Shown here piece after piece: positions 670-53,747 of a DNA stretch of 64,000 bases. Both the position numbers and the translations under genes were made by a program. The notes beneath the pieces are model-generated. The model did not search any database and was not told where the DNA came from. It saw only the letters and a program-made list of their open reading frames with translations. This DNA comes from Pseudomonadota bacterium (GTDB taxonomy: Bacteria; Pseudomonadota; Gammaproteobacteria; Burkholderiales; Ferrovaceae), in assembly GCA_021796835.1 (NCBI GenBank), contig JAKABO010000004.1:1-64000 (forward strand). Direction: 5' to 3'. Each line of letters starts with the position of its first letter. Positions within the stretch are counted from its first letter, which is position 1.

Positions 670-674
670 GGACT

Positions 675-1991
675 TTGGCCTCGGTTCCAAACCATTTATC
701 AGGAAACAAACTGGACGACCTCAAACGTCGGCTCTGGTTTGTGGTGGGCGCTCTGGTGGTTTACCGCCTGGGGGCTCATATTCCTGTGCCGGGGATCAAT
801 CCGGATGAATTGTCGAAACTTTTCAGCACCCAGAAATCCGGCATCCTCGGCATGGTCAACATGTTTTCCGGGGGCGCACTTTCTCGTTTCACGGTTTTTG
901 CGCTCGGTATCATGCCGTACATCTCGTCGTCCATCATCATGCAGTTGCTGACGACGGTGGTGCCCTCCCTCGAGACCTTGAAGAAAGAAGGTGAGGCGGG
1001 ACGACGCAAGATCACCCAGTACACTCGCTATGGGACCGTGGTTCTGGCATTCTTTCAGGCCATGGGGATTGCAGTGGCACTGGAGGCTCAACCCGGACTC
1101 GTGCTCGACCCCGGACTTCCCTTCCGTCTCACCACCGCCATTACGCTGGTGACAGGAACCATGTTCCTGATGTGGTTGGGGGAACAGATTACCGAACGCG
1201 GGATTGGTAATGGAATTTCCCTGATCATTTTCAGTGGGATCGTGGCGGGATTGCCGCGTGCCGTGGGAAGTACCCTGGAGTTGGTTCGTACAGGGGCTTT
1301 CAGTTGGTTCCTGGCCCTGTCCATCTTTGCGGCGGTGGTCGCGGTGACTGCGCTCGTGGTATTCGTCGAACGTGGTCAGCGCAAGATCACGGTGAATTAT
1401 GCGAAGCGTCAGGTCGGCAACAAGATTTACGGGGGGCAAAGCACTCATCTTCCGCTCAAGATCAATATGGCGGGTGTGATTCCGCCCATCTTTGCCAGCA
1501 GCATCATTCTGTTCCCTGCTACTCTGGCCGGATGGTTCGGAAGTCGGCAGCACTTTGGCTGGCTCAAGGAAATCAGCAGCATGCTGAGTCCCGGACAGCC
1601 CATTTATGTCATGCTTTACGCCGGTGCCATCCTGTTCTTCTGTTTTTTCTATACTGCGCTGGTCTTTAACAGCAAGGAAACGGCGGATAACCTGAAAAAG
1701 AATGGCGCCTTCATTCCGGGAATTCGTCCAGGAGAGCAGACTTCGCGTTATCTGGACAAGATTCTCACCCGGCTGACACTGACGGGCGCCATCTACATCA
1801 CGCTGGTATGCTTATTGCCCGAGTTTTTGATTGTCAAGTTCAATGTGCCGTTCTATTTCGGCGGAACCTCATTGTTGATCATCGTCGTCGTTACCATGGA
1901 TTTTATGGCCCAAGTTCAAACCTATCTCATGTCCCAACAGTATGAAAGTTTGCTCAAGAAGGCGAATTTTAAAGGGCAAGGGGCAAAGTAA
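675..1991 (+). CDS. secY: Preprotein translocase subunit SecY
   Basis: SecY is the channel-forming inner membrane subunit of the Sec translocon, working with SecE, SecG and SecA. The 438-residue protein shows about ten hydrophobic segments, the N-terminal [20 protein letters not shown] motif, the plug-region sequence near [20 protein letters not shown], and the cytoplasmic loop with [14 protein letters not shown]. Length is normal. The start is TTG: no in-frame ATG occurs before the conserved N-terminus, and AAGGA lies only 2-3 bases upstream, so initiation may depend on coupling with rplO. It is followed after 2 bases by infA. Confidence 0.97.
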
Positions 1992-35673: not shown

Positions 35674-37470
35674 TTACATGGGGTAGAAACGAATACTCGT
35701 GAGAATCATGTTGTCAAAGGTATAGGGAGTGAATGCACCGCCGTATTGGCTGGCGCGCACCGAGAAGGCACTGACTCCGGTATGGGAATACTGTACCCCG
35801 ACTTTGGCGGCTCCATAGTAACCTTTATAGGCTGCCCACCAGAACCCGATGGTTTCCTGGGTGACGCTGTGCAAATCGTAGGGGGTGAACCCGCTCAGAG
35901 CGGCTTGGGATGTGAACTGTCCCGGATTGGCCAGGACGTTGTTTCCGTATCCGTAGGTCTGTCCGCCCGAACCGTAGGTATAACCGTTGATCCAATCCCG
36001 TCCGATATCGGCATAGATATCGAAGGTGGGCTTGACGTGCAAGGTCAGGCCGGTCAGGAGGGATCCTCCGCGCATGGGGGTCAGTTCACCGTTGGGTCCG
36101 ATGGTGGCATCACTCAGGGTGGAGGTGCCGTAACGTCCGACCCCATTTCCGTACAGTCCGCTGATCTTGAAGTCCAGGGTATGGGGGATGATTTTCAGGA
36201 CCGACCCGAAGCCCAGGGAGCCGGCCCAACTGCTCTGTCCGGCAGCCGTGACATTGGGATTGGTATAGGTGCCGTCAAAGTTGCGCAACATGCCGAAGAC
36301 TTCATAATGACCCAAATTGGTTTCCATGGCCAGTTTGCCGATGATGTCCGGAAACTTGTTGACCGAGTAATTGCCGGGAGTCAACAGTCCGCCCGCCTGG
36401 GCGGGGAGGGTGTAATTGTTGAGAACCCCATTGGGGGTGGACCCTGCTACGCCAGAAGTCTGGGATTGTTCCAGGGAAATCGCGGCCCAGTATTTCTTGT
36501 CCCAGTCTTTAACGACGCGAATCTGAGCTTGCCGGTTCCACACGAAGCCGGGCATGTACTCTGCGTCGATGACAACAGGAATTTCTTCATTGCGCGGGGT
36601 GACCCCCTGGGTGTTCAGGACGGCCAGGGACCAGCTCTGGCCCGCCAGCATATGCCACCCTACGTCCGTCCAGTCGATGTTGGTGTACAGATGCCGGACG
36701 CGCGCCGTATAAGAGTTGCTCTGGGTGCCGTTGGCTGTGGGGCTGTCTCCCAACCAGTCCATTTCGTAGTATCCGGTGACCAGAGTATTCTTGTCTGCAT
36801 TGCCCTGGGCCATCACCGAGAAGCGGGACTGGCGGGCCGTGGCGTTGAAACTGGACTGATTGTAATAGCCCGAGGCTGCCGCCTGACTTTGGGCCGGTGT
36901 CAGCAACAGATTGCCGGGGTTGGGGTTGAAAGGAATCTTGCTGAAGGGCGAGTTGATGTCTGCGCCCAGGTTGCTGCTGCGTAACGCATTTTCTTCCGCC
37001 AGATATCCGCCGAAGGCCAGGGTGACGCCATCCATGATAAAACCGCCCTGGTTCTTGTTGGTGGTGGGGATCAGGTCCCACTGGTCCTGAATGGCCTTGA
37101 ACTTTCCGGAAATCTCGAAAGTCTGGGCCTGGAGTTGCTGATGCTGGCCTTCGAGTTCCTGGCTCTTATTGGAAAGTTGTTGGGTCTTGTCCACAATCTC
37201 CTTGTTTTTATCGGCGATTTCCTTGTTCTTGTCCGCGATTTCCTTGTTCTTTTTCTGGATTTCTTCCATTTGCGCCTTCATTTCCTGCAGGCGTTGTTCC
37301 AGTTCATTGACCTGCTGCTGCATCTGCTGGATTTGTTGGTCATCGGCGAAGGCTGTCGGGAGAACCAGGGCAGAGAGCAGGGCGGCAACGGTTCGTTTGG
37401 CGGTTAAACTCTTTTTCGAGACGCCTGGACAGGCTCTCGAAGGGGATGTGTCATATCGTGTATTAGACAT
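35674..37470 (-). CDS. DcaP-like outer membrane porin with N-terminal coiled coil
   Basis: The 598-residue protein has an N-terminal signal region (hydrophobic AALLSALVLPTAFA, residues about 29-42, after a long basic n-region), a coiled coil (about 45-130) with three KNKEIAD-type heptad units, and a beta-barrel rich in aromatic alternating strands that ends with the outer membrane signature Phe-Tyr-Pro-Met. Barrel features RQSRFSVMAQG, ARVRHLYTN and LAGQSWSLAVL resemble DcaP-type trimeric porins. The start at 37470 has a GGAAA-type site 9 bases upstream; a TTG at 37485 would extend it. A Pho-box array lies 70 bases upstream, so phosphate limitation probably induces it and phosphate or organic phosphate esters are likely cargo. 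Confidence 0.8.
   Translation of the reverse strand: MSNTRYDTSPSRACPGVSKKSLTAKRTVAALLSALVLPTAFADDQQIQQMQQQVNELEQRLQEMKAQMEEIQKKNKEIADKNKEIADKNKEIVDKTQQLSNKSQELEGQHQQLQAQTFEISGKFKAIQDQWDLIPTTNKNQGGFIMDGVTLAFGGYLAEENALRSSNLGADINSPFSKIPFNPNPGNLLLTPAQSQAAASGYYNQSSFNATARQSRFSVMAQGNADKNTLVTGYYEMDWLGDSPTANGTQSNSYTARVRHLYTNIDWTDVGWHMLAGQSWSLAVLNTQGVTPRNEEIPVVIDAEYMPGFVWNRQAQIRVVKDWDKKYWAAISLEQSQTSGVAGSTPNGVLNNYTLPAQAGGLLTPGNYSVNKFPDIIGKLAMETNLGHYEVFGMLRNFDGTYTNPNVTAAGQSSWAGSLGFGSVLKIIPHTLDFKISGLYGNGVGRYGTSTLSDATIGPNGELTPMRGGSLLTGLTLHVKPTFDIYADIGRDWINGYTYGSGGQTYGYGNNVLANPGQFTSQAALSGFTPYDLHSVTQETIGFWWAAYKGYYGAAKVGVQYSHTGVSAFSVRASQYGGAFTPYTFDNMILTSIRFYPM
37189..37251 (-). repeat. Three tandem 21-base units in the porin coiled coil
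   Basis: Units at 37189-37209, 37210-37230 and 37231-37251 are nearly identical and each encodes one heptad (KNKEIAD, KNKEIAD, KNKEIVD on the minus strand). They extend the coiled coil by whole heptads and could vary in number by slippage. Confidence 0.85.
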
Positions 37471-37540
37471 GGTAAACTTTTCCAAATTAATGGGTTAGGT
37501 ATGGGACTTCCGTGACTCCGTAACACTTTGACATAGGTTT

Positions 37541-37580
37541 GTGACCGAACCGTGACAGTCAAATGACACTTTTATGACAG
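37541..37580 (-). promoter_or_regulatory. Tandem Pho-box array (PhoB binding site) of the porin gene
   Basis: Read on the minus strand, four 7-base units follow each other with 4-base spacers: CTGTCAT (37580-37574), GTGTCAT (37569-37563), CTGTCAC (37558-37552) and CGGTCAC (37547-37541). The spacing is exactly 11 bases, as in PhoB sites, and the first spacer is AAAA. Units read toward the porin start at 37470. A clear -10 is not obvious; CTATGT near 37536 is a weak candidate. The array equals two complete Pho boxes. Confidence 0.75.
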
Positions 37581-37607
37581 TTCGTTAAGGGGAAGTGCCC
37601 GAGGTGA

Positions 37608-38570
<963 letters not shown>

Positions 38571-52796: not shown

Positions 52797-53706
52797 CGCC
52801 CACAGCTCCACCTTCATCCGTCTCCAGGAAAGACTGCGCAGTGCCATGGGCAAGGCATTGGGGGATTACGCCATGATCCAGGACGGAGATACGGTCATGG
52901 TCTGTCTGAGCGGGGGAAAGGATTCGTATGCCCTGTTGACGCTGCTGCTGGACCTGCAAAAGCGCGCGCCCATCACTTTCAAACTCATCGCCGTCAACCT
53001 GGATCAGAAACAACCGGGCTTTCCGGCAGAGGTTCTTCCTGACTATCTGGATCAACTGGGCGTGGATTACCGGATCGTCGATGCCGATACCTACGCCATC
53101 GTCAAGGAAAAAATCCCGGCGGGGAAAACCACCTGCTCTCTTTGTTCGCGCCTGCGTCGGGGGGTTCTGTACCGTACCGCCAAGGCGTTGGGGGCCAACA
53201 AGATTGCCCTGGGCCACCATCGCGATGACATGGTGGAAACCTTTTTCCTCAACCTGTTTCATGGCGGACGACTGAAAGGCATGCCGCCCAAACTCGTGAC
53301 CGACGACGGACATCATGTCGTGATCCGGCCTCTGGCCTACTGCCGCGAAGAAGATCTGGCCCGCTACGCGCGCGGGATGGACTTTCCCATCATTCCCTGC
53401 AATTTGTGCGGCGCCCAGGAAAACCTGCAACGCCAGGCCATCAAACAGTGGTTGCAGGACCAGGAAAAGGCGCATCCGGGGCGCATCGACAATATCTTTC
53501 TGGGCTTGCAGTCGGTCACGCCCTCCCATCTGGCAGACCGTGACCTTTTCGATTTCGAGGGACTGGTTCCCTCCCAACGACCGGAACCGGAAGGAGATAC
53601 GCTCTTCGATTCTGCGGACGAGCGGGGGGCACTGCATCTGTCCCATGCCGAAGGACGGCATCTGCACTTCGTGAAAGCCGGAAATTTTGCTAAAATGAAA
53701 GATTGA
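52789..53706 (+). CDS. ttcA: tRNA 2-thiocytidine(32) synthetase
   Basis: TtcA thiolates cytidine 32 of some tRNAs, using ATP and a 4Fe-4S cluster. The 305-residue protein has the PP-loop [20 protein letters not shown] (near residue 37), the CSLC motif in [20 protein letters not shown] and a CNLC motif in [19 protein letters not shown], the two Cys pairs that hold the cluster. [20 protein letters not shown] is also typical. It overlaps the upstream small membrane gene, suggesting one transcript. Confidence 0.95.
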
Positions 53707-53747
53707 TTATGGAAAATGCGCCCTCAACCGGCACTCAAGGACCCCCG

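Follow-up and report, generated by a model that had tools for sequence, protein, structure and literature searches.

The locus described here raises the question of whether a short repeat in front of an outer-membrane porin gene is an operator for the regulator PhoB and, if so, what the pore would carry when phosphate is low. It lies in a 64,000-nucleotide stretch of contig JAKABO010000004.1 (assembly GCA_021796835.1; the whole stretch is hereafter called the window) from a member of Ferrovum, iron-oxidising bacteria that live in acid mine drainage. PhoE of E. coli and OprP of Pseudomonas are PhoB-controlled porins made at low phosphate. In both, an outer-membrane pore is placed under a Pho box, as is predicted for the present porin, although PhoE and OprP belong to a different porin family. 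Phosphate in acid mine drainage is often very low, and at one treatment plant where a relative of Ferrovum occurs it was undetectable (PMC4725956). The accessible part of the same paper, which reports the JA12 genome, names pst, pho and polyphosphate genes, includes no outer-membrane step and proposes PhoB control of pst only.

A four-unit repeat faces the porin gene

The preliminary description of this DNA had claimed four CTGTCAT-like units at an exact 11-base period, aimed at a porin gene 70 bases away, and direct reading of the sequence bears this out. On the minus strand, from 37580 to 37541, the array reads CTGTCATAAAA GTGTCATTTGA CTGTCACGGTT CGGTCAC (as one 40-base string, CTGTCATAAAAGTGTCATTTGACTGTCACGGTTCGGTCAC), which gives four 7-base units in the scheme CTGTCAT-N4-GTGTCAT-N4-CTGTCAC-N4-CGGTCAC (Table 1). 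The 70 bases are counted from the array end to the ATG at 37470; the listed open reading frame begins at a TTG (37485), and the ATG is preferred as the start. This ATG, together with a GGAAA-like Shine-Dalgarno sequence, is kept in the five closest of six Ferrovum porin promoters, the present one included. A general repeat search of the intergenic region returned nothing, the units probably being too short and varied for such a search.

Table 1. Features of the porin–argB region, with positions in the window.
Feature	Position	Strand	Description
Porin gene	35674..37470	−	Encodes 598 aa with a signal region, a coiled coil and a barrel distantly akin to DcaP
Proposed −10 hexamer, CAAAGT	37525..37530	−	Begins 17 bases past the unit 4 start
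Predicted four-unit Pho-box array (two boxes)	37541..37580	−	11-base period; faces the porin
Downstream box, units 3-4	37541..37558	−	CTGTCACGGTTCGGTCAC; weaker; one mismatch to the two-unit pattern
Upstream box, units 1-2	37563..37580	−	CTGTCATAAAAGTGTCAT; strongest box; exact match to the two-unit pattern
argB (amino-acid kinase family)	37665..38570	+	PF00696; divergent; judged not to be the target

Such matches exceed chance expectation. A three-unit pattern (TGTCA-N6-TGTCA-N6-TGTCA, up to three mismatches) matches the window 6 times against 1.33 expected, a count reached by none of 100 shuffles, and four of the six matches overlap the array, including the only ones in the window with no mismatch or one. 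Across the genome (2,148,144 bases, 2.15 Mb, in 64 contigs) the array is the sole exact three-unit match, and with up to three mismatches there are 39 matches versus 8 for a reversed control pattern. Contexts were examined for the matches at C9:1499/1510, C20:22890, C10:5239, C25:729 and pstS, and two of these, C9:1510 within an acetyltransferase-type open reading frame and C10:5239 within a ribosomal-protein gene, were taken as chance. A four-unit GTCA pattern allowing two mismatches gave three matches in the genome, two overlapping the array and one at another operon, and its control gave none. A tandem repeat of TTGGCACCAAG at C15:3998-4046 (L019-L021) also has an 11-base period, with hits on both strands and no GTCA core.

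The array shares its box with pstS and phoB

The preliminary description had counted the absence of phoB from the genome, or a low genome-wide rank of the site, against a Pho operator. In fact, phoB is present at C25:811-1479, where its product scores 338.8 bits against a curated cut-off of 296.2, and is directly followed by a gene for a PhoR-type kinase (PhoR domain, PF11808). PhoB exceeds the cut-off in seven of the eight genomes of the genus, the eighth being 74% complete. The pstS gene lies on the same contig as the window, about 41 kb away. A two-unit box, CTGTMAT-N6-GTCAY, with up to one mismatch, matches the genome 25 times versus 7 for a reversed control, and occurs exactly at four sites: the porin array, pstS (CTGTAATCAATCTGTCAC), phoB (CTGTAATATGACAGTCAC) and the end of one ribosomal-protein gene; this pattern was designed with knowledge of the pstS, phoB and porin sites, so that the scan is a test of specificity and no blind discovery. 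The porin, pstS and phoB sites thus emerge together genome-wide, which was the check proposed in the preliminary description. Two of the 21 one-mismatch sites fall in the array, and 18 of the other 19 lie inside open reading frames of at least 100 aa on either strand, some of which are surely spurious. The remaining site outside such frames (C8:8619-8636, L144) is accompanied by GACAAT at the spacing of the Pho promoters, lies 164 bases before an open reading frame with membrane segments, and is possibly a further Pho promoter.

Position matrices that left the porin out gave the rank of the site. The full matrix was trained on boxes from eight pstS, seven phoB and five metallophosphoesterase promoters, and 397 kb of genome sequence, giving 793,320 windows and excluding the contigs with known sites, served as background. 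Units 1-2 exceed every one of these background windows under all three porin-free matrices. With the full matrix, the scores are 22.9 for units 1-2 and 20.0 for units 2-3 against 15.4 for the best background window, and 12.8 for units 3-4, which six background windows reach; pstS and phoB of the same genome, both in the training set, reach 25.0 and 24.8. With pstS and phoB alone as training, the values are 20.6 for units 1-2 and 18.2 for units 2-3 against a background best of 13.6, and 258 background windows are as good as units 3-4. The metallophosphoesterase boxes score below zero under this matrix, so the place of that operon rests on its four-unit pattern. With pstS and metallophosphoesterase boxes, units 1-2 score 22.4 against a best of 15.7, five background windows reach units 2-3 and 12 reach units 3-4; the held-out phoB box is reached by 20 background windows, which marks the matrices as narrow. 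A box-like site elsewhere in the window (53695-53712, minus strand, CATAATCAATCTTTCATT) scores 17.3 under this last matrix, above all background; it lies inside a coding sequence of the opposite strand and was taken as chance.

The array and a weak candidate −10 hexamer are conserved in Ferrovum

The porin is found in six of the eight genomes of the genus, and the two genomes in which it was not found are 86% and 73% complete. In five of the six promoters the array is kept in register. Across these five genomes the GTCA columns are invariant at 16/16 positions versus 8/24 for the others (Fisher p 1.2e-5, a guide only, the genomes being related). The sixth promoter, from genome G005, whose porin is 86% identical, has one box only, TTGTCATAAAAACGTCAT, followed by ATTTACCCCC and TACAAT. 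Outside the genus, no clear Pho box was seen before five distant porin homologues (L058-L062): the 9.6 kb of L058 contain a single weak three-unit match (three mismatches), 173 bases ahead of the gene, and L059-L062 have no three-unit match. Support for the predicted PhoB control thus comes from within the genus. Elsewhere in the family, 24 genomes were searched for the porin, and three of them gave short coiled-coil matches and no others.

A missing −10 had been named as the weak point of the locus. No sigma-70-type consensus promoter was matched in 37400-37700, and to that extent the objection holds, but a degenerate, conserved hexamer, CAAAGT, lies at the spacing of other Pho promoters. It is weak, agreeing by eye with TATAAT at three of six positions, and is identical in all five four-unit porin promoters, with TACAAT at the same place in G005. 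A −10 candidate likewise starts 17 bases past the start of the last unit in front of pstS (8/8, TAnnCT), phoB (7/7, TATAAC) and the metallophosphoesterase gene (5/5, TTCAAT or CTCAAT, with TTCAAT in the present genome). The distance from unit to −10 is the same in Pho promoters of E. coli. Since an activator-dependent promoter can have a weak hexamer, the objection is answered in part.

The same comparisons bear on which protein would bind the array and on which gene it would act. Direct repeats with a period near 11 bases can be bound by OmpR-family regulators in general, and the genome encodes other response regulators, with five further matches spanning nearly all of the PhoB model; that one of these binds here in place of PhoB is nevertheless very unlikely, as the units match the boxes of the organism's own phoB and pstS and stand at the same distance from the −10. 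Equally improbable, in our view, is that PhoB acts as a repressor of the porin or that its target is the divergent argB. The site is flanked by both genes, and there are known Pho boxes that confer no phosphate regulation (PMC4415409, in the part available), but the array is directed away from argB, which disfavours that gene as the target, and its orientation and 17-base spacing are those expected if the porin is activated, as well as those at pstS and phoB. We therefore retain activation of the porin by PhoB as the preferred reading.

Similar arrays precede lipid-remodelling-type genes and flank tRNA genes

Over the eight genomes of the genus, the four-unit GTCA pattern (up to two mismatches) has 23 matches in seven genomes and its control none. 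Eight are exact, five at the porin and three beside tRNA-Arg. The inexact ones include overlapping shifts of the porin array, the metallophosphoesterase gene in five genomes and phoB in G005, with one more near tRNA-Pro and one inside an open reading frame of G005. The present genome has its metallophosphoesterase array at C20:22880-22916 (L012 / L097); it is of the four-unit Pho type, occurs in five Ferrovum genomes, and is followed in the present genome by a glycosyltransferase gene after the metallophosphoesterase. As far as the available text goes, such a pair is known from lipid remodelling at low phosphate, in plcP-agt operons with Pho boxes (PMC4796936), and the same kind of four-unit array precedes the pair here; those operons encode enzymes, whereas the array at 37541-37580 precedes a porin. 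The plcP and agt names are suggested by domains and gene order, neither protein exceeding an NCBIfam cut-off.

Two further arrays were observed. In genome G004 (L090, reverse strand, array 1501-1537), a four-unit array with two mismatches lies 86 bases before a gene for an OlsB-like ornithine acyltransferase (open reading frame 672-1451, minus strand; below the NCBIfam cut-off), with GATATT at the common spacing; its control by the array would fit the making of phosphorus-free ornithine lipids at low phosphate. In G005 (L104, reverse strand, array 1501-1537), a four-unit array with one mismatch precedes a gene for a TonB-receptor plug domain. The genes with four-unit arrays that fit phosphate stress are thus the metallophosphoesterase operon, phoB in G005 and the OlsB-like gene in G004.

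Arrays of GTCACC type with an 11-base period also stand by tRNA genes (L092, L095, L096 and L107, each at 1501-1537), just past the 3' end of tRNA-Arg in three genomes and near tRNA-Pro in one. We take these to be possible integrase arm sites at attachment sites; a Pho role for them is unlikely, and their existence means that an array of this kind does not by itself prove a Pho site. That similar GTCAC arrays adjoin tRNA-Arg and tRNA-Pro in relatives would allow the porin array to be part of a mobile element, or a chance repeat, yet it sits between the porin and argB with its cores fixed in five genomes while the spacers vary. A chance repeat is further disfavoured by the genome-wide rank of the site together with this conservation, and we regard an origin of either kind as extremely improbable; a PhoB operator remains the preferred reading.

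The porin is remotely related to the DcaP proteins

Public homologues of the porin include those of Ferrovum myxofaciens P3G (95% identity), where the gene likewise has the four-unit array, and of a Ferrovum sp. (92%), and more distant relatives occur in a proteobacterial MAG (45%) and three Acidobacteria MAGs (33-35%). DcaP porins form a 16-stranded trimeric barrel with a periplasmic coiled coil. Searched alone up to E 10, the barrel of the present porin hit none of the Pfam or NCBIfam families, PF19577 (DcaP) included, and the full protein gave weak matches below cut-off, with coiled-coil types, at about residues 42-130, among the best 25 of 61 and the best 25 of 60. A barrel profile of six proteins out of a set of 11 (two Ferrovum, one proteobacterial and three acidobacterial, with the Pfam-DcaP member L062 left out) aligned with five DcaP proteins at an hhalign probability of 99.4% (E 8.5e-22, 290 columns), against 0.2% with seven OprP-family proteins. 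In a PDB sequence search the six-sequence profile found no DcaP, and a profile including L062 found the DcaP structure 6EUS (7.1e-8). The DcaP-like label of the preliminary description therefore holds at the level of profile kinship but not at that of the Pfam DcaP model, which the protein does not match, and we place it as a distant member of the superfamily outside the curated family. Kinship to OprP was not found, either in the profile comparison or in the genome, where PF19577, PF07396 (Porin_O_P) and PF13609 (Porin_4) were sought and none matched.

With the DcaP porins the protein has in common an N-terminal coiled coil and a related barrel, coiled coil and trimer being reported for DcaP in the accessible part of PMC12338516. 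The differences are the known role, the DcaP porins studied there serving carboxylic acids, and the Pfam DcaP model, which the present porin fails to reach. At positions 216, 259, 313, 318, 396 and 446 the porin has arginines that align by eye with DcaP arginines, and a DcaP-like protein is reported, again in the accessible part of PMC12338516, to prefer anions. The charge of the barrel is close to neutral (27 basic and 30 acidic residues), with no sign of a basic phosphate pore.

These properties leave it a serious possibility, if something short of probable, that PhoB controls the porin while the pore itself is a general or a carboxylate/anion pore, produced under low phosphate so as to increase permeability broadly or to match an outer membrane whose lipids have changed. 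The near-neutral barrel, the carboxylic acid role of the DcaP porins and the sharing of the array with lipid-type genes would all agree with this, as would the lack of matches in the genome to the three porin families sought, by which the present porin could be the main general porin. Against it, co-control with pstS best fits a role in phosphate uptake, the arginines conserved in DcaP remain, and anions are the preference reported for the DcaP-like protein.

Discussion

Taken directly from the sequence are the site, its conservation in the genus, the motif and spacing common to phoB and pstS, and the presence of PhoB and PhoR. Together these strongly support the prediction that the porin is activated by PhoB. 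The joint reading, that the array is a PhoB operator and that the porin is induced at low phosphate and admits phosphate or another scarce anion, is in our judgement quite probable on this sequence evidence; we infer that PhoB binds, that it activates and does not repress, and that phosphate is what the pore carries. At low phosphate, phosphorylated PhoB would bind the four 11-base units head to tail as two dimers, replace the missing −35 element and contact sigma-70, so that transcription would begin from the weak CAAAGT hexamer. The porin would then fill the outer membrane, phosphate (or another scarce anion) would enter the periplasm, and PstS, itself under Pho control, would capture phosphate there. 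Head-to-tail binding of Pho boxes by PhoB and its contact with sigma-70 are described in the part of a review available to us (PMC4415409), and two serial boxes ahead of a weak −10 agree with a promoter that PhoB would activate strongly when phosphate is low.

Phosphate is a plausible cargo of the pore. Co-control with pstS, the anion preference of the DcaP-like protein and the scarcity of phosphate in one habitat of the group point towards it; the near-neutral barrel charge points away, as does the service of known DcaP porins to carboxylates. We advance only tentatively the more specific proposal that a branch of the DcaP superfamily, hitherto linked to organic acids, serves as the phosphate pore in an iron oxidiser from acid mines without an OprP-type porin, under its own two-box PhoB operator. 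A channel that may be compared is Omp40 of Acidithiobacillus ferrooxidans, an outer-membrane channel of an acidophile reported to rise at phosphate starvation (PMC8886135, in the part accessible); the likeness lies in the reported phosphate response alone, which for the present porin is predicted.

Pho-controlled porins are already known, and what is new, within the literature that could be searched, is the predicted Pho link for this DcaP-related branch. Our search found no DcaP paper that mentions the Pho regulon, and the accessible parts of PMC4725956, PMC8886135, PMC7236192, PMC13390463 and PMC12338516 do not describe Pho control of this porin. The result gives a first hint of what this porin branch, which no Pfam or NCBIfam model covers, may do, and a sketch of a small Ferrovum Pho regulon, comprising the porin, pstS, phoB and the lipid-remodelling-type operon, with the ornithine-lipid gene in one relative, which supplies a testable motif and spacing. 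The porin is a candidate for the outer-membrane phosphate step in Ferrovum and, if the proposal is true, it would add a third porin lineage to those of PhoE and OprP by which phosphate crosses the outer membrane.
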